In this document: piece by piece, positions 1 to 35,690 of the stretch | Layout of the letters: every line of letters begins with the position of its first letter | Numbering within the stretch: the first letter of the stretch is position 1 | Assembly: GCA_009602725.1 (NCBI GenBank) | Contig: WELB01000004.1 | Coordinates: 1,097,457 to 1,133,889 of the forward strand | Reading direction: 5' to 3' | DNA: 36,433 nucleotides | From: Spirogloea muscicola | Taxonomy: Eukaryota > Streptophyta > Zygnematophyceae > Spirogloeales > Spirogloeaceae | Position numbers and translations under genes: made by a program | The notes under the pieces: generated by a model | Told to the model about the DNA's origin: nothing | The model's database searches: none | Seen by the model: only the letters and a program-made list of their open reading frames with translations

Positions 1-124
<124 letters not shown>

Positions 125-156: not shown

Positions 157-1947
157 ATGCCCAAGGACTCGCTGCTGCAGCGCGCGCAGGCCGAGCGGCT
201 CCTGGCGCAGCTCGCCGCCAGGGCCGCGCGGCCCGGCGCCAACCCCGCCGGCTTCCTGCCCATCCCGTCGGTGGCGTTCAGCTCCAGGTCGTCGTCTGGC
301 GTCGCCCCGGCCATCGCTCATGCGCCGCTGCCCACTGCGCTGTTCTACCAAGCTGGCGATGTCGGCCCGCCTGCCGGTAGTCCCGCCATCAAAGAGGAGC
401 CGCGCACAGTCGAGCCGGAAGATGGCCCTCGTGCTGCGACTCCAACGATGCGGCCCGTCACACCTCCCCCACCACCACGGCACGCTGCCGCATCGGATGG
501 CGCGCCCTCCATTCCGCCGCTGCCCAGCCTCGCACACTTCTCGCCGTCGCTGGTCAGCGGGCCCGATCTTGTCCCCGTTCCGACCGTCCCGAATCGCCAG
601 GAGACGCCACCGCCGCAGCAGCCTGCGCCATTGCGCGGATTGTTGCCGCCGTCCGGCTCAAGAGGTGCGGCGCCGAGCAGCGAGGGTGGCCGACCGCACT
701 CACCGGGGCTCCTGGCCTTCCTCCCGCCTCCGCCGCTGCTGCCCATGAGCCGGCTTGCGGGCAACTCCCGGGCCTCGGAGGCTGTGCCGCGCCCCGATGA
801 CTCCATGGCTGCGGACGGCGCCAGGGCCAGCCCCGAGAGCGGTCCTGCAGATCAGTCGCTGCTGGGTGCAGCGGCATGGCTGCGGCCTGCAACACTCACA
901 GAGGAGATCAGGTGACACTCACTCACTATCCCCACAGTCCAGCAGCCAACTTGACGCTAGTCAGATCTCATAGCTATTGATTGTCATCCTCATTTGAGGT
1001 GGTGCTTCACGATGATTGCAAGGTCAAAGTGGCAACAAAGTGCTGGCTCCTCCCATGGGTGATTGTTCTGCCGTCGGAGTCCAAGATCAGGTCGTCCCGT
1101 ATGGAGGGCTATCGAACGCTGCTGTCTGTTTGACGTAAATAGCGTTGTTTGACGTAGGGTCCAACTGGAGGCTGTGTTCTCCTCCAACCACAGTCCGTCA
1201 CGAGAGGTCCGCAAGGAGCTGGCTGTGAAGACAGGCCTGTCTGCAGACCAGATTGCGACGTGGTTTCAGAACCGGCGCATGCGTCTTAAGCGGTCCGAGG
1301 CCACTGACAGCGGCTGCTACGGGGGTGGGCCTGCTGTTCCCACCTTCGCTGCGCCGTCCCTCCCTGTGGCTAGCACTTTGCAGGGCTGGACAGTACTGGG
1401 CACACCGGCTACCTCCCCGATGCCGCTTGCTGCACCCACCATGACACAGGTGCAACTGGCAGCGGCGCTCGCTGCCAGCGAATATGAGAAGGGCAGCCAT
1501 CCTGGCACGTCTAGCATTCTGCACAATCTGCCACCTCTGCCCTCGTTTGGCAGGCCTCCCAGCTCCACCACGCCGCTGACACAAATGCAGCCTGCCACTG
1601 CTAAGTCCGAACCTGGGTTGAGCATCAGCCAGCCAGCAACTGCAGTGGACAATCTGGATGCTCTGATGGGATCATTGCCAACGACGCTAGGTGTGCCAGC
1701 TGCCATGGAGGGTCCCCTTGTGGCAGTGGTGGACAGGCAGCCAGCTGAGGAGGAGCCAACAGGGCCTGGCTCTGGAGCAGCACGTCCACTTATTGACTTA
1801 AACTCGGACAATCGCGGTGAGCAGGAGGAGTCGCCTCAGGCTCACCAAACACTGGATGGTGAAAGACACTCCAGCTTATTAGGAACAAGTTCTGCTATGG
1901 CGTCCTCCAGCAGTCGCTTGCTGCTGGCACCCTTGAGTATAACATGA
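157..1947 (+). CDS. Homeodomain transcription factor (non-TALE), possibly 5' partial
   Basis: Nuclear DNA-binding protein. Exons are 157-911 and 1158-1947, joined by a phase-consistent GT-AG intron of 246 bp (split AGG codon), giving about 514 residues. The homeodomain spans about residues 240-299, with helix 1 around LEAVF and recognition helix QIATWFQNRRMRLKR. The invariant W48, F49, N51 and R53 equivalents are present, with Gln at position 50. Length fits a 60-residue domain with no TALE loop insertion, and no leucine zipper follows it. The N-terminal 230 residues are proline/alanine/serine-rich and low in complexity, as in activation or repression regions. A C-terminal LIDLN stretch (about residue 462) recalls EAR-type DLN repressor motifs but lacks the usual proline. 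The ATG at 157 is the first, but the frame is open upstream into the poly(A), so the true 5' end may be missing. The target is unknown. Confidence 0.85.
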
Positions 1948-2688: not shown

Positions 2689-3600
2689 TCAGAATGTCTT
2701 AGACGACAGGGCAGGCACCCGGTTGGCAGACCGGGGCCATGCGCACCGCGGCCCCATGGGCACTGATGTCAGATCGGCCTCCATGCTGCCCGTTGGTGAG
2801 GGCGTGCTGCGTGCGCGTGGCCACGGGCAGCGGGAGGCATCCGGTGCTGTAGCGCTCTCGTCTGCTGAAAGCGAGTCACTCCGCGACGTCGCCACAGCTG
2901 GAGCTGCAATCGCTGCCGAGGCCTGCCTGGGCCACGAGCAACGGGCCACCGGGGCCTCGGCGCTGGCAAGAGGGGAGGTGAGGGCGGCCTGCGCGGGCTC
3001 CCTGGTCACAAGAGGCGTTGCGAAGGCGGAGCTGGCAGTGGCGCGCGGCCAGGCGCAGCGGGCAGCGAACTCCCCGGCAGGCACAGACTTCGAGGGAGTG
3101 GACACCCGCGGCCACGCCGAGCGCGGCCCGAGCGGGATGGGCTCCGTCTCTGCCGGAGCGGGCAGCGTGGTCGTCACCGACTCGCCGCCCTCCACCTCCT
3201 GCACCACGCCGCCGGGGAAGAGGTTCCAGCCGAGGCGGGGCGTCCAGTCGAGCCGCGGCCACTGCTGGACGGCGAGCTTCGCCAGGTCGTCGACGGCGCT
3301 CAGGGCCGACTCCACGGGGCTCCTCCGGAGCTCCTCCTTGGCGAGGAGGGGCAGGCAGTAGTTGCCGCTGCAGGCCTCGGCGGGCGGCCGCTCCTGGACG
3401 GACGAGGCCTCCCGCCGCTGCGCCGCGGGCCGGTGGACGGAGCGCGGGGCTGCGAACAGCGGCTTCACCCCGGAGGAGCGCAGGGGCGCGCTCGACAGCT
3501 GCCGCGGAGCAGCGTCAGCGTGCCCCTTCTCGGCACAACGGGCGCCGGCCGCGGCGGCAATCACGGAGGCCGCCCGCGCGGCGCCGCACGCGGCAGCCAT
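2689..3600 (-). CDS. Uncharacterised Ala/Pro-rich protein with RCxWPR repeats
   Basis: Not a family I recognise. The single-exon model starts at the ATG at 3600 (in a CpG-dense 5' region) and ends in TGA, 303 residues. The first 60 residues are Ala/Arg/Ser-rich with few acids and no long hydrophobic core, resembling an organelle-targeting peptide. Residues 85-130 look more structured and hold WPRLDW and PRLGWNLFPGG. The rest looks disordered and carries five short motifs with W at 163, 184, 223, 260 and 288: RSAWPR, RCAWPR, RCSWPR, RCPWPR and RCAWPR. Spacings are 21, 39, 37 and 28 residues. In the minus frame the variation between copies is mostly synonymous: Arg as CGG, CGC, CGT or AGG; Pro as CCC, CCA or CCG; Trp always TGG. 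This argues that this is the coding strand. The frame is open upstream to 4107 but is poly-Pro/Ala from GGC repeats, so the internal ATG is preferred. Function is unknown. Confidence 0.6.
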   Translation of the reverse strand: MAAACGAARAASVIAAAAGARCAEKGHADAAPRQLSSAPLRSSGVKPLFAAPRSVHRPAAQRREASSVQERPPAEACSGNYCLPLLAKEELRRSPVESALSAVDDLAKLAVQQWPRLDWTPRLGWNLFPGGVVQEVEGGESVTTTLPAPAETEPIPLGPRSAWPRVSTPSKSVPAGEFAARCAWPRATASSAFATPLVTREPAQAALTSPLASAEAPVARCSWPRQASAAIAAPAVATSRSDSLSADESATAPDASRCPWPRARSTPSPTGSMEADLTSVPMGPRCAWPRSANRVPALSSKTF

Positions 3601-3806: not shown

Positions 3807-4440
3807 GAGGGAGGAGGGAGGGGGGGGGGCTGGACCACCTGCGGCGCCGCCGTGGGGGGGGTAAGTCGGCGGTGTGGATGGCCTTCCTCTGCGGGTTAGA
3901 GCCACCCGCAGTGCGGGCGACACCCCGTGGGACGCCCCGGCCAACCACAGTGGCAAACGGCCGCGTTAGGCGAGAGCGCGCTTTTATCAACCCCCCCCGA
4001 CGCGCGACCCCGCAGAGGACGGCCTGCGGGGCGAGGATCATTGCCGGGCGCGCCCTGCATGACCGCGGCGCCGGGGGCCAAACGCCGGGCAGCTCCTCCT
4101 CACCCACGGCTGCTTACCTACACTCTAGAGCTTCTCTCCCGTGGACACAGGCCGCCTGTAGCTCCACTACCCTGCAAGCGGCTTGGCCCCCGGTGCGACC
4201 CGAGGGGGACCACCAAGGTACGTGGCGGCCTCTCCGCGTCCGCCGGGCCCCTGAGCCTTATCCGCGGGCGTGGGATCCACGTCAGGGATCCGCGCCGCGG
4301 CGGGCGGGGGGGGGCGGGGCCAGTTGGCGCCGCGCGGCCCAATGGCCGACCGCACCGCCCCGTCAGCGCCGCGTCCGCTGCCGCTTCGCCGGTGCCGCCC
4401 ACCACCCCGCCTTTCCAGTGGCGTCGGGGCCGCCCCGAGG
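3807..4440. other. GC-rich upstream region, no gene called
   Basis: CpG-dense DNA upstream of the WPR-motif gene. It is probably its promoter or 5' leader and perhaps also promoter DNA for an unseen feature. Long open frames here are produced by high GC and have no recognisable domain. Confidence 0.4.
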
Positions 4441-12654: not shown

Positions 12655-12975
12655 GCTTGTTTTCCTTAGCCTCTGGCTCTGGCCAGGGGACCCACTTCCA
12701 GGAGCCCAGCATCTCTGATCTGCGGCTGCTTAGCAGGGGTTACTGAGTGTCTCGTAGCAGCTTTGTTTCTGTTACTTACCGCTTCCCCTGGCCCCCTTCT
12801 CGTACTCTGTTCATTCTTTTTCGGGCTGGTTGTTCCAGCCCCTATTCTCAATGGGCGAGCACTTTCTTCTTTTTCTTAGCGCTTCCCCTGGCCCCCTTCT
12901 CGTACTCTGTTCGTTCTTTTTTGGGCTGGCTTTTCCAGCCCCTATCCTCACTGGGCGAGCACTTTCTTGAACCGG
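12655..12975 (+). mobile_element. LINE 3' end followed by a tandem second tail
   Basis: A short coding end GTHFQEPSISDLRLLSRGY-stop (to about 12746) is followed by the type-A tail with hairpin at 12823-12841 and terminus GGGCGAGCACTTTCTT. The last ~95 bp then repeat directly, with a perfect hairpin GGGCTGGCTTTTCCAGCCC at 12923-12941. This is head-to-tail concatenation of two 3' ends. Confidence 0.6.
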
Positions 12976-13318: not shown

Positions 13319-13622
13319 GCAGATGTGTTTCCGGCTGAGATGGGCTTGCCAGCTGCATATCTGTCGCTCTTGCGACGTCGAGTTTCGGCCTGTTTGCAGC
13401 GTGCTCAGGCTAGTGCCTTGCACCAGAAAGCTGGGCGAGCTCTAGTAGGTGGCAGAAGGGCTCCGTTCCTGGCATCTAGCATTCATGCATCGAGTAGTGA
13501 CCTTTATGTTTTGACCCGTGGTTATTGAGCGGGTCAATCTGCTGTAGGTTATGTAGATTTTGAGATGTGCTTGCCTTTGTACCTGGCCATTTGGCCTACA
13601 TTTCTTTCTAATACACGATCTT
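13318..13622 (+). mobile_element. Type-B LINE 3' end, intact final frame
   Basis: Open frame 13325-13528 (FPAEMGLPAAYLSLLRRR ... LTRGY-stop, 67 residues) followed by a 95-nt UTR. The UTR contains GGCCATTTGGCC and ends at TTTCTAATACACG. It is about 90% identical by eye to the minus-strand copy at 5865-6190. Confidence 0.65.
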
Positions 13623-13634
13623 TTTCCTTCTCGT

Positions 13635-13795
13635 CCTTCGTTGAATTTTTTTGGGCTGGCTTTTCCAGCCCCTATTCTCAATGGGCGAGCTCCAGGGGGG
13701 AGGGAACAAGAAGTGGCACTTCCAATGGGGCAAAGGGCTGCGAAAAGCCAGCCCAAAAAGAATTCACAAAGGTTCAGAGGGGCCTAAGAGCGGTG
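13635..13795. repeat. Tail-to-tail inverted pair of LINE tails
   Basis: A plus-strand type-A tail with a perfect hairpin (13653-13671) faces a minus-strand tail (13795-13705, GAAAAGCCAGCCC at about 13741-13753) across about 40 bp. The pair could fold into one long stem. Confidence 0.6.
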
Positions 13796-14929: not shown

Positions 14930-17900
14930 ATGAAGCCCGGGTCCAAGATGGTTGGTTGGCAGGCCAGCCGCTCAGCGCTCCGCCTTGCGACTTTCTCCTA
15001 CCTGCTTGTACTGATCTCCACGCTTGCTGGTGCTTTCCCGACGACCTGACCAGCTTCTGCCAAGTTCCTCTCTCCCACTAGTATGGCGTGCCCAATACTA
15101 TGTTTAGCTGGACCCTTGAACAACGAGGATATTGTGCATGCCCATCTTGCTGTCATCCTCATGAAAGGTATCGGCATGACCTTGGCATGGTGCTAAGCGT
15201 ACGCATGCAGTCAATCAACAGGGAAGGAGTTGCACTATTCCAGAGAGGCATAGTACCTTCCTCTGAAGGTTGCCGGCCTTCTTCGTGTAGCGTACCAGTC
15301 GCATCTAGTTCTGGCCATGGTAGGATGCTGACAGTAGGACCTGTATGACTGCTGTGATGCCATTCCTCTACAGTGCAAGCCCAGGCCAAGTTGTCCAAGA
15401 AAATCTGCATTCTTGGAGCAGGTCCCTCGGGAATTGCAGCAGCCACCGAACTAGAGAGCAAAGGCTATTCGGTAGCCATTTTTGAGAAAAATGCCTATGT
15501 TGGTGGACGTACCAAAAGCTTCAAGTGAGGAGGTCATTCATGCGAAACATTGATTGACAAGTGTGCTACATGCAAGCATCTGTACCTGGGACAAATTTCT
15601 TTGCCTGACAGACTGTGGGGAAGACTGATTCACCAGCTTTCTGCACTGCAGAACCCACTCATCAACCTTCAGCGAGCTGAATTCGGCCTGACATGACCAG
15701 GACCTTTTATGCAGATATACTATGGATGGACTCAACTACGACGAGGGGGCCGTGATCCTCACCACGGACTACACTAATGTGCTGAGGCTTGTACAGAGAT
15801 TTAACTTCAAGATTGGTTACATGAATTACACCTCGTACTTCTTCGATCCTCGAACAGGTCTAGCAGCTTCTCCTACTCACACGGCTTCTTGACTTACTTT
15901 ACCAGCCAGTCTGTACAACCGAGCGCTCTTATTACACCTGCACGAGCTAACTTGCCAAATAGGAAAATGCCTACTCTACCAGCTTTGCTGCCACTTGCAG
16001 GACGTTGAAAGGCTACGAACTCTTAAGCGCCCCAAAGTTATGCCTACGAATTCCTAGCTGTAAAATATCATAATTCATGTCGATGACCAACCAATCTGCT
16101 TGTTGCATTGGAGGGATCAGGGTTTAAAGTCAAGATTGCATCACTGTCAACACCAAGTACTACAGCAGCACTATTACAAGCTCTCGCGCAGTATGTCACC
16201 TTGTGGTCTGACTGGCGCTTCAATGCCCAGAACAACACTGCAGCATATGCACTTCCCTTCGGTGCTTGGCTTGTGCAAAATAAGCTGCAACCTTTGCTCC
16301 CAGCCTTTCTTGAGATTGTGACAACCTTCGGGTATGGCTCTTTGATGGAGACACCCACTCTTTACGTGCTGAGGTGAGTTCACTTGTCCTTCCTGCCTGC
16401 TGATACTGCTTTTCTTTTGGGCAAGCCTTGCTGCTTCTGCAAAGTGGATGGGGCCTCTTCAAGAATATCAGAACGATAAAGTTGTGACATTTTGGTGGCA
16501 GGTACGTGACGAAAGATCGCATTGTATCCTTGTTGGTGGATCTTCGTCAACCAGCAATCATTGATGAGCCAGGAGGTTTTCAATCTTTGATTCAGAAATG
16601 GGCAGGGACGGTCAAAGGCCCCATATATCTAAAAACATCAATTGCTGTCAACCGTCCTAAAAAGGGACTTCCGACTGTACACTTCACAGGCACCCTCAAG
16701 GGCAAAATAACACAGTCCTCAATGACCTGCAGAAAAATTATCGTGGCATTTCCCCAAATAGCAAAGAATCTTGGATCCTTGGGGCTTGACAGCAGAGAAA
16801 CAGCTGTCTTCAATCAGGTACACTTGCAGTTCCTGGGGCTTGCCATAACCATCTTCTGCTATGTGGTCATAGCAGAGCCCTTCTGTGGAGCTTGGAGCAT
16901 TCCTGTGTCCACCCTTCTCTCGCTTCTTCTGGTGGCAAAAAGCCTTATTGACGCCTTTTTGAAGCTAGCATCTGACTTGCTGCCGTCTTATGACTGAAGG
17001 TTGTTTACAGCGGGTTCTCCACCACCCTTATTGATGTTGGAGCTACTGGGCGCATTGCACTTGACCAGCCATCTGCCCTCTATGGCATCTTGAACGGTAC
17101 ATCATTTTCAGAGCCACCGGGAAATGGCGGCCCTGTTGGCATTACAACAGAGGTAAAGCTGAATAAACCCTTGTCAATAGGTCATTTTTTTGGTTTGACT
17201 ACGTACTAAGCAGACTCAGTATTCTGGGATGTTTTTGTAAAGGCCATTGTAGATAAGTGATTGACATTCTGGATCAGTAGCTGTACCAGGCATATGCTCC
17301 ACTCTTCAGATACCTTGCTTGATGGATTATCTGCAGCTGAATAGACAACCAGCTGTTAGTAGCAGGTCTCACTCCACAGGTGGCTATGACAGGCGGGGAG
17401 ACGATTGACAACCTTGTACTCTTGGAATCGGAAAACAAGCAGTTTAAGTAGTGCAAATGCTCAGTCAACTGCATTTGCCACACTTGCTAAGCTCGGCCCC
17501 GGCACCACCCTTGCACAGCTGGGACCTACTGCCATCAAAGTAAGATCCAGCAGGAGTCTTGAGTCAAAGATCACATTCAGAGTACTTTCTAGAGACAAAC
17601 ATAATGAGAATATTGACTAGGGAAAGCAGGGAAGTAGTGGTCGCTGTGCTCTTTGACATGTCAAAAGTGCCTCCAATTGCCTAATTGATTTACTATGTGA
17701 TGGAAACAGCAGATATGTCAATCTTGCTTCTGCCAAAAGCTCATCTGGATACATTGAACTTTTGCAGGACTTTCAATTATGGGACTATTTTCCTCATGCC
17801 CCTTCAGCAGCCATAGCTGCAGGCTTTGAGGCCAAGCTCCATGCACTACAAGGGTACCGGAAATCTTACTACACAGGCTCTTTACTGAGATTTGATGTTG

Positions 17901-17950
17901 TGGAGGACAGTATCCAAGCTACTATTGACCTCATCGACACATTCTTCTGA
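14930..17950 (+). CDS. FAD-dependent oxidoreductase, amine-oxidase-like, paralogue 1
   Basis: Probable flavoenzyme entering the secretory pathway; the substrate is unknown. Eight exons: 14930-15029, 15374-15524, 15715-15857, 16121-16373, 16502-16817, 17000-17152, 17393-17539 and 17768-17950, all GT-AG and phase-consistent, giving 481 residues. An N-terminal hydrophobic segment (residues 17-33) with a VQA-type cleavage site suggests a signal peptide. The dinucleotide-binding motif GAGPSG is at 48-53, with the acidic end at about E71 and then GGRT, typical of flavin amine-oxidase and NAD(P)-binding Rossmann proteins. A YDEGAVILTTDY block follows, then a central helical domain (QYVTLWSDW, YGYGSL) and a C-terminal VEDSIQATIDLI segment. 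General resemblance to algal and fungal FAD proteins of the cyclopiazonate-dehydrogenase-like group is an inference. A TGTAA signal lies 118 bp after the stop. Confidence 0.8.
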
Positions 17951-18067
17951 CTAACAGCGACTAAGCAACCACTTCAGAGCTATCCAGAACCGAGGGACAT
18001 ATTTTCTCAGCCTCTATTGCTCATCTTTCTTTCTTTCCTCCTTACTCGAGCCAACCCGGCAGACAAG

Positions 18068-21696: not shown

Positions 21697-24600
21697 ATGC
21701 TGCGCCGCGCTCGGCCTGCCGCGCTGCTGTCGCTGCAGCTACTGCTGCCGTGCGTCGCGGCCGTCCTCCTCGGCGTTGCCTTAGCTGCTGCTGGTATTGC
21801 AACGCGCCACTCGACTCGACGGTGTGCGCTAGACACGCTAAGCTACATATCAATGCTTCCGTGCACTCCGTGCATGCAAGGGGATCACGGGATTCACCGC
21901 TTTCGCTCTGAACAGGTAGCTGAATCTGCTATATAGATAGCCCACCGCTACTGTAAGTGTTGCAGCGTTGCTGGGTGAGGTCTATGGCACCCCAATCTGT
22001 CCATGACATTCACGAAGGGCTGCAGACAAAGGGCCTCCAAAGGATGGCAAGCCAGTCTGCATCCTTGGGGCAGGGCCCTCTGGACTGGCTGCGGCAACCA
22101 GCCTAGAAGATAAAGGCTACAACGTGATCGTCTTCGAGAAGGAAGAAAGTGTTGGGGGCAGGACACGAAGCTTCGAGTGAGTGAATCACCTCGACAGCCC
22201 ACAACTTGCGCCTGGCACGGACTCTGTGCGTCATCCTCCAGCCATTCGGGCTACTGTGCCGGACGTCTCGCGAGCTTCCGAGTAGACATGTGGATCCAAA
22301 CAATATAAAATCGTAAAGCCAGTGCTTTCTGCAGCTAGACAGGACGAAAGAGTGAGTTGAGGTCTCCCTCGTGTGTGCTCGATAAGGAGTCACTGCGAGT
22401 TGCTGTTTGCTTCAATTGACGCTTCATGTTGCACCGCCTGAACCGGCTGAGTACATCTCGAGTCAGTATCTGCTCAGGCGCCTTTGTGTGTGCTACGCCT
22501 TCTGTTGTGTGCATACATTACCGCAGGTATCGCAAGGAAGGCCTTTTCTACGACGAAGGTGCCATCATCATCTCCACAGACTACGTCAACGTCTTAGAGC
22601 TCATTGATCGATTCAACTTCACTGTCGACATCGGTCAGCAAGGGGCTTACGCTCAGTTCTTTTTTGATCCGAGCTCAGGTCTGAAGCAGTACTGTCTTCC
22701 TGTACGCACTCACAAGTGCTTATCCCAGAGAGATTCAGTACTAGTCAGGAGTCTTCCCAGCACGACCTGCAAGACGTTGTAAGCGCGTCAACAAGAAGGA
22801 AATCCTTCTGACAGTCAGGAGTAAGAACATCTGAGCAACTTCTATGTCAGTGGCATGTATGGTGCAACTTCGGTGTCATCAAGTAGATGCCCGCTTGGCA
22901 GATTCCAACATCCTCATGCAAGCCGGTGTTGTCCATGTTGGTTTGTGGCCATGCTTTATAACAGGTTACTCAGTTTCAACAAGCACATTTTCCAACCCCT
23001 TCACAGCGACGCAACAACAGAATGCCCTTCGACAATACGTCACTCTGTGGTCTGAGTGGCGCTACACTGGGCAGCACAACGACACTGAGTACTCAATCCC
23101 ATTCGGGACATGGCTTCAGAATCATGAGCTGCAAGCCTTGCTTCCTTTCTTCCTTACAACTATGCTCTGCTATGGGTATGGGTCAATGACGAGCACACCT
23201 GCTTTGTATGGGCTAAGGTAGTATCTCTGCTCTTAATGACTGATGAGAAAAGTGCGTACATTCCTGCATAGGCCTCTAGGTTGCATGCATTGCTCCTTTT
23301 CCAATATATGTATGTAAGACACAGACACGAGTAAGATAACAACTGATCTGCATTCTTTGAACTTCGTACAGTCCAGCATAATCTGCGCGTGAGCTCCCTG
23401 TGCGACTACAATGTTTTGCCGTGTGCATCCCTCATTAGCTTATGTCTCGTTTTCAGCGGTCTTTAACAGCCACGAAGATTTGATATTGTGCACTGTATAC
23501 TTTCAGATATATGACTAAGGACCGTATTGCGGCCTTCCTTGTGTCTCTTGACAAACCTGCCACCATTAAGAACCCTGGTGGGATACAGTCTCTGCTGAAA
23601 AGGTGGGCGACGACCATAAAAGGCCCCATTCACTTGAATACACGGGTTTATAAAGTAAGTCGACCTATCAGTGGATCGCCCACTCTAAGCTACGTGCTCA
23701 AGCAAGGGGGATCAATTGTCAAGGCAACCGTGGAATGCCACAGCGTTGTTGTGGCCTTCCCTCAGCTTGCCAGTCGCCTTGGCTTCCTGGGTCTCGATAA
23801 GGAGGAGCTAGGTCTACTCAGCCAGGTGCACGATCTGCCTCTGAAGCGTATAGTGGTCAATGGGTGATACCACACTTTTTGAAGTATGCGCTGTGTCAAG
23901 CGGCAGCATTGAAAGCATGTGATAGTTGTGGTAATTGTAGGTTGAGCACATTGGTTACGCAACCTCTCTCATCGATCTTGGAGACAGTGGCCGAGCCCAG
24001 GTGACCCAGCCTTCAGCTTACTATGCCCTCCTGAGCGGCACATCAATCGTCGAACCGCCTGGAGATGGCGGTCCCATAGCCTTCTCAATGGAGGTATTGA
24101 CTTGGATGGCACAATCTGGACACTCCAGCATCTCAGCTGCAGCGATTGCTTAACTGCACTCATGTAGGTCAGACCAGCAGTCGTATGTATTGGCATAAGG
24201 CACCTCACTCCTGCTTTGCTCTGCACAGACTGGGAAGTCATTGGCAACCGTTTACTCGTGGAACCGCAACACTACAGCCATCAGCACAAGAAACGTGCAG
24301 ACGGCAGCTTTAGCCACACTAGCCAGACTTGGGCCCACTACGAGTCTCAGTCAGCTTATAACAGCTAGTTTTAAGGTGAATCGAAAAACCTATCTTGAAG
24401 GATGGGTTGTCGTGCAAGACCAGTCCGCTAAAATGTCAGTGTCTGCCCTGATGTACAAAAAGAAGATCCACGACAATTCCATTGCTGCCTTACTCATCCC
24501 TACTATACAGTTCAAAGACCTGTATCGTACCTGTCATATTCCTGCAGGATCTTCGGTTGTGGGGCTAATTTCCACACGCGCCCTCATCTTCCATTGCAGC

Positions 24601-24730
24601 TGGTTTTTTTCAGAAGCTGGCCATTCTGCAGGGGCACAGGAGCACATTTTATGTAGGGTCCCTGCTGAAGTTTGACTGCGTGGAGGACAGCATTCAGGGC
24701 ACTCTTGACCTTATTAAGCAAGCTTTCTGA
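21697..24730 (+). CDS. FAD-dependent oxidoreductase paralogue 2, with in-frame TAA in the last exon
   Basis: Tandem paralogue of 14930-17950. Exons: 21697-21793, 22026-22176, 22527-22678, 22965-23217, 23507-23825, 23941-24093, 24229-24375 and 24548-24730. Exons 2, 4, 6, 7 and 8 have exactly the same lengths as in paralogue 1 (151, 253, 153, 147 and 183 nt), and all phases match. It has a signal peptide (residues 8-32), GAGPSG at 47-52 and GGRT, then YDEGAIIISTDY, QYVTLWSEW and YGYGSMTSTPALYGL. In exon 8 codon 431 is TAA (24566-24568), where paralogue 1 has Tyr. The frame stays conserved beyond it to VEDSIQGTLDLI and TGA. As read, the product stops at 430 residues and lacks the last 53 conserved ones. 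An alternative in-frame acceptor (TTTTTTTCAG, ending at 24613) would skip the TAA. Recent nonsense mutation, sequence error or alternative splicing are all possible. Confidence 0.75.
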
Positions 24731-25532: not shown

Positions 25533-26261
25533 TCACTGGGCGGCCGCGAGCGACGGCACGGGCATGTTGAGCGCCTTGCGGAGCTTCTCGACCTCGAGGT
25601 AGGCGGTGCCGTAGGGCAGGAACTCGGCGGCGTACTGGTCGGCGCACTTGTGGACGGCCTCCGCCAGCCGCCCGATCTCGGCCACGTCATCGGGCGTGAG
25701 GTCGCGGACGTAGCGCGCGGGGCAGCCGGCCCAGAGCTGGCCGCCGGGGATGCGGCGGCCGGGCGGCACGACGGTGCCGGCGCGCAGCACGGCGTGGCGC
25801 TCCACCAGGGAGCCCTCCATGAGGACGCAGCGCTCGCCGAGCACCACTTCGTCGTCGATGGTGCAGGAGCGCAGCGTGCAGGCCGGCGCCACCGTCACGT
25901 ACTTGCCGACGACGGCCTCCGCCGAGAGGCCGGTGGCCGGCGCGGTGCCGGCGGCGGCGTGCACCACGCAGCGGTCGCCCAGCGAGGAGTAGGCGCCGAG
26001 GACGACGGCGTTGAGGTCGCCGCGCAGGACGGCGCCGTGCCAGACGGAGGCGCGGTCCTGGACCTCCACGGCGCCCACGAGCGTGGCGGACGGCGCCACC
26101 CAGGCATCCACCGCCACGTCCGGCACGACGTGCTTCAGGACCACCACCTGCCGGTGGCCCGCCCACGGCTCCGGCGCCAGGCCGTGCAGGGCCGCGGCGC
26201 CGCGCCGCCGCGGCAGCGCGCGGCGGGCGCCGCGGGCCAGCGCCCGCAGCGCCTGCGCCAT
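25533..26261 (-). CDS. Gamma-carbonic-anhydrase-like protein (mitochondrial complex I, gamma-CAL type)
   Basis: Left-handed beta-helix protein of the carbonic anhydrase domain of plant and algal mitochondrial complex I. Single exon, 242 residues, ATG at 26261, stop TGA. The first 25 residues are Arg/Ala-rich without acids, a mitochondrial presequence. Hexapeptide repeats run from about 45 to 185. RGD at 80-82 and H101 (CVVHAA) are retained, but the segment YVTVAPACTLRSC (121-133) lacks the two other zinc-ligand histidines found in active gamma-CAs (GHSAVLHG type). It should therefore not bind zinc normally, as in plant gamma-CAL proteins. The C-terminus EFLPYGTAYLEVEKLRKALN is the gamma-CAL signature. 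The gene is CpG-rich throughout, uses mostly G/C third positions and is divergent from glucosidase II. Confidence 0.92.
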   Translation of the reverse strand: MAQALRALARGARRALPRRRGAAALHGLAPEPWAGHRQVVVLKHVVPDVAVDAWVAPSATLVGAVEVQDRASVWHGAVLRGDLNAVVLGAYSSLGDRCVVHAAAGTAPATGLSAEAVVGKYVTVAPACTLRSCTIDDEVVLGERCVLMEGSLVERHAVLRAGTVVPPGRRIPGGQLWAGCPARYVRDLTPDDVAEIGRLAEAVHKCADQYAAEFLPYGTAYLEVEKLRKALNMPVPSLAAAQ

Positions 26262-26393: not shown

Positions 26394-29300
26394 NAGGCGG
26401 CGGCGCTCGCGGCGCTGGCCGCGGCGCTCCTCCTCGCCGGCCTGCCGCGCGGCGCGCTGGCCTTCAAGGAGCAGGAGTTCCGCAAGTGCGAGCAGGCCTA
26501 CTTCTGCCGCACCAACCGTGACCGCACGCCCGGCAACTGCACGCTCGCGCTCGTCTCGAGCGCGCTCGCCGCCGACGGCCGCTTCGTCGGCAAGCTCGCC
26601 GACGCCGGCGCCGGCGACGGCGTGGAGCTCGACCTCGAGCTCAGCGCGTACGCCGACGGCATCCTGCGCGTCAAGGTCGACGAGGTCCCCTCCAAGAACC
26701 GCTTCCAGGTGCCCGACGTGCTCGAGCCGGACCTGGAGACACGGCGGGTGCCTTTAGCACCGGGCACCAGGAAGTTCTCAGTGGTAGTCGACCCCACGCC
26801 CCTCATGTTTGGCGCATACACCATTGATGTCTTCCACAAGGTGCGAATGATGCTGCCGCAGTTACTGCTCCTCAAGCCGTCAATTTCTTTGAAAACGGGT
26901 CGATGAATTGTTGACATTCTTTCTCATGTCATATCTCTTGAATCCTTTCGCACTATATTCTTGAACTGCCTTTGTTGTGCTTCTTATAACCAGCAGATTG
27001 CTCGGGTATCTTTATGTTTCTGCATTAGCCTCTGCTATGTGACTTGCATTCCAGCTGAGCTTGTCCTGCGTACATCTGAATGAGCTGAATGTGCAGATAT
27101 TGCATGATGTAGGAGACGTCATGTACGCTGACTGAAGCCCTCTGGCACCTCGTCTGCAGCCCTTCTCTCTCACAGTCTCAATGGACGGCCAGCCCATCAT
27201 GGGCTTCAATAAGCGGGGCCTCTTCCACTTTGAGCAATTGAGGGGCAGTAAGCAGGAAGGCGATCCAGCCGACATGTGGGAAGAGACCTTCCGTTCTCAT
27301 ACAGGTGACCAATTTGCCCTTCTCAAGCACTGTGTTCCCTTGGCGATGGCCTTGATCAGGATGTAAAGTACTGCAAGGAGTCATGGGACCAACATGTGCT
27401 GCTGTTAGAGCATTTTGTGTTTGGTCAGTAACTGACGTTGCCACCTGCAAACTGCAACTTCCGAGATGAAGTGGGTGTGTATAGGCATTCCTCAGCCCAG
27501 TGAGCTACTAGATTGCTGGTGTTGTGTACAAATTCACTCAGATTCTAAGCCAAGAGGACCTGCTTCTATCTCCTTTGACCTTTCATTCTATGATGTCGAG
27601 CACGTTTATGGTATCCCCGAGCGAGCAACAAGCTTGGCCCTTAAGGTGCAATTTTCCTTCAAAATCCAGATTTGTCCCCCAAGTTGGCTTCACCCATATC
27701 TGTGATAAGCTGCTGAGCTTGCAGCTTATACGTTGTTGAAGAGGACTGCATATGACCACTCTCTGCTGCATGCTTGAGGTTCTCTGATTCAGTAGTCTGT
27801 CTGCTGCAGCCGACCAAGGGCCCAGGCTTAGACTCGGAACCTTATAGATTGTTCAACCTGGACGTCTTTGAATACATGAGCGAATCACCATTTGGGCTGT
27901 ACGGGTCCATTCCATACATGCTGAGCCACAATGCAGAGCGTACTTCTGGCTTTTTCTGGCTCAATGCTGCGGAGATGCTCATTGATGTCCTCAAGCCTGG
28001 GTGGGACGACCAATCTCCACAGGAGGGGGGCCCGGTAGACCCTCAGCCTGAAGCACATGAGTCTTATACGCAATGGACGAGTGCACGTCAAATACCTTCT
28101 GACACCATTAGCTGAACCTGCTGTTCATAGATTGAGTCGCACTGGATCAGCGAGAGTGGCATACTGGATACCTTCTTCTTTCTGGGGCCAAGCCCCCAGG
28201 ACGTGATGCGGCAATATTCCTTAGTGACGGGCCCCACAGCCTTGCCTCAGCTGTTCTCTGTGGGCTACCATCAGGTCCACATCTTGGGCACCGTAACCTC
28301 TAATCGGATGGTCGAAGCTGCTCTATGGCAGTCGCTTCTTGATGCTTTCCAGAAACTGTTGTGGCGGCCTGGGGCCTGGGGCCAAAGAGGTACCGCGGGG
28401 CTGTGTCTGAGGTCAATTGACGCACTTGGCTCAGGCTTTGTCCCAGTGATGCCCCATGTGACGGCAATGAGCTGGTTGCAGTGCCGGTGGAATTACAAGG
28501 ACGAGGCGGATGTGGCTGCAGTGGATGAGAATTTTGACCACTATGATATACCATGCGATACGATTTGGCTTGATATTGAACACACAGAGGGCAAGAAGTA
28601 CATGACCTGGGACAAGGCCAACTTTCCCAACCCTGTGGAGATGCAGGTATAGAGCACAACCCATGACCAGCCATGTCACCAATTTGTGACTTAGTAGACT
28701 TGGATCAGATGTACTGTGTAACAAATGACAGCCTTGTTCCACCTTACTGTGATGCTAGTCAATGGTGTGAAGAGCTTCTCGGCATCAATTAAGTTGATCA
28801 GGGTAAGCGTCTCTACAGCATTTTCTATTTGGTGCTTTTTTGAATCGCTGGATATGGAGTTTTACTATGTCCATGTTTGAATTTCTTCAGAATAAGATCG
28901 CTGCAAAAGGGAGGCACATGGTGACAATTGTGGATCCTCATGTGAAAAGAGAGACTGGATATAACCTCCACGAGGAGGCAACTTCCAAGGGCTACTATGT
29001 CAAGGACGCATCTGGCAAGGACTATGATGGTTGGTGTTGGCCGGGCTCATCGTCCTACTTGGACATGCTTGACCCCGCCATTCGGTCATGGTGGGCTGAC
29101 AAGTTTTCTCTGGCAAACTACCCTGGATCGACTCCAATTCTCTACACCTGGAACGACATGAATGAGCCCTCTGTGTTCAACGGGCCCGAAGTGAGTGGCT
29201 CAAGTCAACCAACTGTGGATTGTCATTTCTACGGGCTTTTGGTCAAGTAGAACAAGCACATCATCTAGGACCGGCTATCTGGAACTAGCAAACCTATGTG

Positions 29301-35486: not shown

Positions 35487-35690
35487 GGTTTAGGGTCTCT
35501 GATTTGCGGCTGCTTGGCAGGGGTTACTGAGTAATTTGTAGCTGCTTTCTTTCTTTGTGTGCTTTGGTTTCTTAGCGCTTCCTCTGGCTTCCTCTGGCCC
35601 CCTTCTCGTTCTTTGTTCATTCTTTTTTGGGCTGGCTTGTCCAGCCCCTATCCTCAATGGGCGAGCCCTTTCTTTCTGACTGGGGAAGCG
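35487..35690 (+). mobile_element. Short LINE 3' end, plus strand
   Basis: The coding remnant SDLRLLGRGY-stop (about 35499-35531) is followed by the type-A UTR with a perfect hairpin at 35629-35647 and CAATGGGCGAGCCCTTTCTT. It is convergent with the previous minus-strand tail across GGGTTTAGGG (35485-35494), a telomere-like unit. Confidence 0.6.

Follow-up and report, generated by a model that had tools for sequence, protein, structure and literature searches.

Rubisco linkers have been named for Chlamydomonas and Chlorella and for one diatom, a chlorarachniophyte has a candidate, and EPYC1, PYCO1 and CsLinker are described as lacking sequence homology with each other (PMC13159521). PYCO1, the pyrenoid linker of the diatom Phaeodactylum, is described as having a pI of 10.03 and the sticker KWSPR/Q; the sticker, KWSPRGGS in the structure, sits on the Rubisco small subunits and its Trp is needed for binding (PMC10288592). 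In CsLinker of Chlorella, the binding elements are helices about 10 residues long that contact the Rubisco large subunit through Phe, Arg and Lys, and the linker search FLIPPer is stated to seek repeated elements spaced 20-120 residues apart (PMC11570498). In the titles and abstract openings of the mainly open-access literature searched, no pyrenoid linker was reported for a streptophyte alga.

The locus described here lies in a window of 36,433 nucleotides, which is the whole stretch of Spirogloea muscicola DNA that was analysed, and encodes a protein of 303 residues with five copies of the motif R-[CS]-x-W-P-R. It resembles PYCO1 in having a repeated short motif of the Trp-Pro-Arg type, and its core holds the sequence DWTPRLG. 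PYCO1 is basic and predicted mostly disordered; the present protein is less basic and may likewise be disordered. It differs in that KWSP had 0 matches in the 303-residue protein, with one WTPR at residue 119, and in that PYCO1 also carries tyrosine motifs (GTGYNP), has a repeat length of about 80 residues (compared with spacings of 21-39 residues here) and acts on the Form ID Rubisco of diatoms. Likenesses to CsLinker would be disorder of the protein and the repetition of short, here putative, binding elements, whereas the CsLinker elements are helical (PMC11570498). With EPYC1, the pyrenoid linker of Chlamydomonas and a plastid protein, the likeness lies in multivalent Trp/basic motifs and would extend to disorder. 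The EPYC1 motif [D/N]W[R/K] carries an xx[L/I/V/A] tail. An earlier reading of the DNA made from the sequence alone (the sequence-only reading) had stated that the motif differs from that of EPYC1, which was borne out by 0 matches to [D/N]W[R/K]xx[L/I/V/A] and 0 to W[RK]xx[LIVAMF]. The KWSPR sticker of PYCO1 is nearer to R-[CS]-x-W-P-R than the EPYC1 sticker is. In its arrangement the protein is similar to multivalent linkers that join copies of a partner into droplets, as in the Rubisco condensate of algae.

Results and Discussion

The gene and its parts

The coding sequence runs on the minus strand from an ATG at 3600-3598 to a TGA at 2691-2689; this strand is open throughout the span, whereas the plus strand contains stops. 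The G+C content by codon position was 0.69/0.69/0.84 (about 74% for the frame overall), which is a coding-like pattern. The length, the coordinates and the Ala/Pro/Ser-rich composition put forward in the sequence-only reading agreed with what was found (63 Ala, 36 Ser and 36 Pro among 303 residues). The pI was 9.37 for the full length and 8.90 for residues 53-303. The parts of the gene are listed in Table 1.

Table 1. Coordinates in the window of the 303-residue gene and its parts.
Feature	Position	Strand	Evidence
Coding sequence, 303 aa plus stop, single open frame	2689..3600	-	Codon-position GC; duplicate L002; dN/dS 0.21
Presumed transit peptide, Ala/Arg/Ser/Pro-rich, residues 1-52 (extent is a guess)	3445..3600	-	pI 10.1; by-eye likeness to assumed first RbcS exon frame
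Conserved segment, residues 85-131: amphipathic stretch and WPRLDWTPRLGW	3208..3348	-	0/47 residues changed between copies; helical moment
Motif 1, RSAWPR, residues 160-165	3106..3123	-	
Motif 2, RCAWPR, residues 181-186	3043..3060	-	
Motif 3, RCSWPR, residues 220-225	2926..2943	-	
Motif 4, RCPWPR, residues 257-262; RCAWPR in the duplicate	2815..2832	-	
Motif 5, RCAWPR, residues 285-290, 13 residues ahead of the C-terminus	2731..2748	-	

The N-terminus had been called targeting-like, and by eye its beginning, MAAACGAARAASVIAAAAGARCAEK..., does resemble the assumed first RbcS exon frame of the same genome, MAALAATSALAVAAAAP.... The first N-terminal windows had a low helical moment and a disorder value of 0.04 at residue 11, values that do not discriminate between organelles. 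The compact Trp-rich segment noted earlier, WPRLDWTPRLGW, was located at residues 114-125, and the highest helical moment (0.47) was found at residues 100-117, LSAVDDLAKLAVQQWPRL. On a residue scale, the disorder propensity was 0.11-0.33 in sampled windows centred at residues 131-291, and the most order-prone window was centred at residue 121 (0.01), followed by the very N-terminus (0.04).

A duplicate copy and purifying selection

The genome used for comparison was a 153-Mb assembly of 471 contigs, and the selection tests were made between two copies of one gene in this one genome. One close second copy was found on contig C45 (locus L002), encoding 305 residues with 92% identity and with all five motifs kept. 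For the whole gene the Nei-Gojobori method gave a dS of 0.205, a dN of 0.043 and a dN/dS of 0.21. For the motif codons, whose neutral evolution had been named beforehand as the outcome speaking against the reading, dN/dS was 0.08 on small counts from the two copies (1 nonsynonymous and 4 synonymous changes), and for the spacer codons of residues 150-303 it was 0.23. The sole nonsynonymous change in a motif replaced Pro by Ala in motif 4, at its free position x. None of the 25 fixed motif residues had changed, compared with 19 of the 142 spacer residues within 132-303 (one-sided Fisher's test, p = 0.038); when all six motif positions were counted the comparison was 1/30 against 19/142 and not significant (p = 0.10). 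Residues 85-131 were likewise unchanged (0/47 compared with 24/256 elsewhere, one-sided p = 0.015), but synonymous changes in this stretch also numbered only 2, so that its low divergence may explain the result.

Only two indels separated the copies inside the coding sequence, each of a single codon. The ATG at 3600 was in frame in both copies, and about a dozen codons immediately upstream were shared in frame with no ATG among them. Farther upstream the open frames of the two copies encode unrelated peptides, which makes it unlikely that the protein is longer and begins far ahead of this ATG. The gene is conserved and under purifying selection on its protein, and the repeat peptide is selected. 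A weak third match in the genome (L003, E = 2.07, with one TAG inside) was dropped, as no WPR was present in the stretch translated.

The window was collinear with C45 at 0.2-4.7, 7.3-9.5, 14.2-21.0 and 21.1-22.4 kb, in blocks longer than 1 kb with 77-86% DNA identity (L002 and L044-L047), and window 9.5-14.2 kb had short repeat matches only, in an alignment from which rows of fewer than 120 bases were omitted. The gene sits in a duplicated genome segment, which probably derives from polyploidy or hybridity. The collinear partner region was G000:C45:200000-238999, facing window 1-22409, and window 14.2-18.3 kb had two long counterparts on C45. Upstream of the gene, the 497 bp at window 3815-4311 were identical in both duplicated segments, and neighbouring bins of 100 columns were mostly 65-91% identical. 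A 501-base query from this block occurred at two places in the genome. Each copy of the block contains one N, at most about ten bases from its left edge, so that an artefact of gap filling or collapse, a recent gene conversion and extreme constraint are all possible.

The repeated peptide

Five motifs had been reported at spacings of 21-39 residues; they were found at spacings of 21, 39, 37 and 28 residues. When the protein was shuffled 100,000 times, R[CS]xWPR occurred on average 0.001 times and at most once, compared with the 5 observed. The post-hoc choice of motif was allowed for by scoring the commonest W-containing tripeptide, which in the protein was WPR with 6 copies, a number reached in 0 of 50,000 shuffles (the highest was 5, in 2 shuffles). 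Outside the protein, R..WPR had 2 occurrences in the six frames of the window.

The 18 nucleotides encoding the motif averaged 74% identity between the copies in the gene, whereas the 45 nucleotides upstream were 35% identical and the 36 nucleotides downstream 33% identical, compared with an in-frame background of 32%. The repeated unit is therefore the peptide with varied codons and not a recently copied DNA module, and duplication of a longer DNA module as the origin of the repeat was ruled out by the background identity of the flanks. The synonymous differences described in the sequence-only reading were present at the first Arg (CGC/CGC/CGT/CGC/CGG), at Pro (CCG/CCG/CCC/CCA/CCC) and at the last Arg (CGG/CGC/AGG/CGC/CGG).

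For the whole protein, neither Pfam families nor PDB chains were found up to E = 10, and no relatives were found among prokaryote and viral contigs. The best PDB matches of the core peptide (a designed protein, E = 0.065, and a PPR protein, E = 0.19 and 0.22) were judged to be chance. In the genome a DNA pattern of the RCxWPR type, which also admits Ser for Arg, had 351 matches compared with 115 for the reversed pattern, a control unmatched for dinucleotides, and the excess is unexplained. Among the 30 loci inspected (100 places were listed for the 351 matches), L036-L039 were the studied gene and L035 reached its end; no other frame of at least 30 codons with more than two R[CS]xWPR was found among these 30, the next richest being a 469-codon frame on C5 with two.

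The Rubisco small subunit of the host

Exons of RbcS were found at four places in the genome (eight matches), and their translation presents what we take to be the short beta-A/beta-B loop of plants. When the exons were joined by eye the best match was chain 9pvb_M with 197 bits; the next chains scored 168-188 bits, several of them presumably from plants, and chains 1gk8 and 7jfo, which we assume to be from Chlamydomonas, scored 150 bits. The Chlorella chain 8q04, named in PMC11570498, scored 144 bits; in the aligned region the Chlamydomonas and Chlorella chains were both longer by seven residues. By these sequence comparisons the small subunit of the host Rubisco is of the land-plant type, which points to a streptophyte, most likely an alga.

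Possible functions of the protein

The sequence-only reading stood as regards a real gene whose peptide is under selection, the compact Trp-rich segment and the multivalent motifs in low-complexity sequence, and as regards the targeting-like N-terminus it held by eye. We regard as about evenly balanced between true and false a model in which this streptophyte protein is encoded in the nucleus, is probably imported into the plastid and serves there as a scaffold of stickers and spacers. Against the model weigh the comparison of just two copies in one genome and the loss of significance when all six motif positions are counted. Each R-[CS]-x-W-P-R would be a short peptide docking on one and the same surface of the partner, its Trp packing into a pocket and its two Arg forming salt bridges. 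Carried on flexible, presumably disordered Ala/Pro/Ser spacers of 15-33 residues, the five tags could cross-link several partner molecules, and the amphipathic and Trp-rich segment at residues 85-131 could be a separate point of anchoring or self-association. By analogy, Rubisco would be the best-motivated candidate partner, because the spacing agrees with the linker-search rule (20-120 residues) and because PYCO1 uses KWSPRGGS stickers. Even with a partner other than Rubisco, an unrecognised protein with a conserved, putative Trp-Arg docking tag in five copies offers a lead that can be tested directly with a simple series of mutants.

One special case of the scaffold model would be a pyrenoid Rubisco linker or matrix tether, in which RCxWPR binds Rubisco, the five copies cross-link holoenzymes into a matrix and residues 85-131 anchor the protein to a membrane or to itself. 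This reading is plausible but was estimated to be unlikely, although several observations are compatible with it: all four spacings lie between 20 and 120 residues, the protein is basic both with and without its first 52 residues, the Trp-Pro-Arg sticker recalls that of PYCO1 and the host possesses plant-type RbcS genes. A family match would not be expected, the known linkers being unrelated in sequence, and given that EPYC1, PYCO1 and CsLinker are without homology the missing match is neutral. On the other hand, neither [DN]W[RK]xx[LIVA] nor KWSP is present, the pI of 9.37 is below the 10.03 of PYCO1, and the motif was not established in a second protein: frames with more than two motifs occurred, among the 30 loci inspected, only at the loci of the studied gene. 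The specific proposal of a streptophyte pyrenoid Rubisco linker, with a new sticker RCxWPR that is convergent on the diatom WSPR and whose Cys may tune it by redox state, appears quite unlikely; if true, such a linker would act on Rubisco of the land-plant type, as needed for crop engineering.

A scaffold or regulator of the plastid or the mitochondrion, which would dock a different partner by its Trp-Arg tags and might be under redox control via Cys, was considered somewhat unlikely. The presence of Cys at position 2 in four of the five motifs, kept in both gene copies, would fit such control and the Ala/Arg-rich N-terminus suits either organelle, but no known family with the motif was found in Pfam, in PDB or in a literature search on WPR motif and chloroplast. 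That the frame is an accident of GC-rich DNA, as its GC content of about 74% and the lack of a stop upstream of the ATG might suggest, is highly improbable given the dN/dS of 0.21, the single-codon indels, the conserved motifs and a repeat far beyond that in shuffled proteins; a chance frame was rejected on the two-copy conservation and the shuffles.

Other features of the window

A homeodomain exon (Pfam, E = 4e-13) at window 1174-1947 belongs to the convergent neighbour of the 303-residue gene. Two adjoining genes at 15370-18000 and 21700-24730 contained pieces that by eye were of the flavin amine-oxidase type (GPSGIAAATELESKGY...). On the minus strand, 25536-26261 encodes a hexapeptide-repeat protein (Pfam Hexapep), which we presume to be gamma carbonic anhydrase-like, and 28807-29247 holds an exon from a gene of glycoside hydrolase family 31. 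A repeat centred on 'gggctggcttttccagcccctattctcaatgggcgagc', with closely similar variants, was interspersed at 12780-12870, 13620-13690, 35496-35676 and elsewhere, and the segment 35521-35674 recurred on C45 with 100% identity. The first 123 positions of the window (1-123) are all A.
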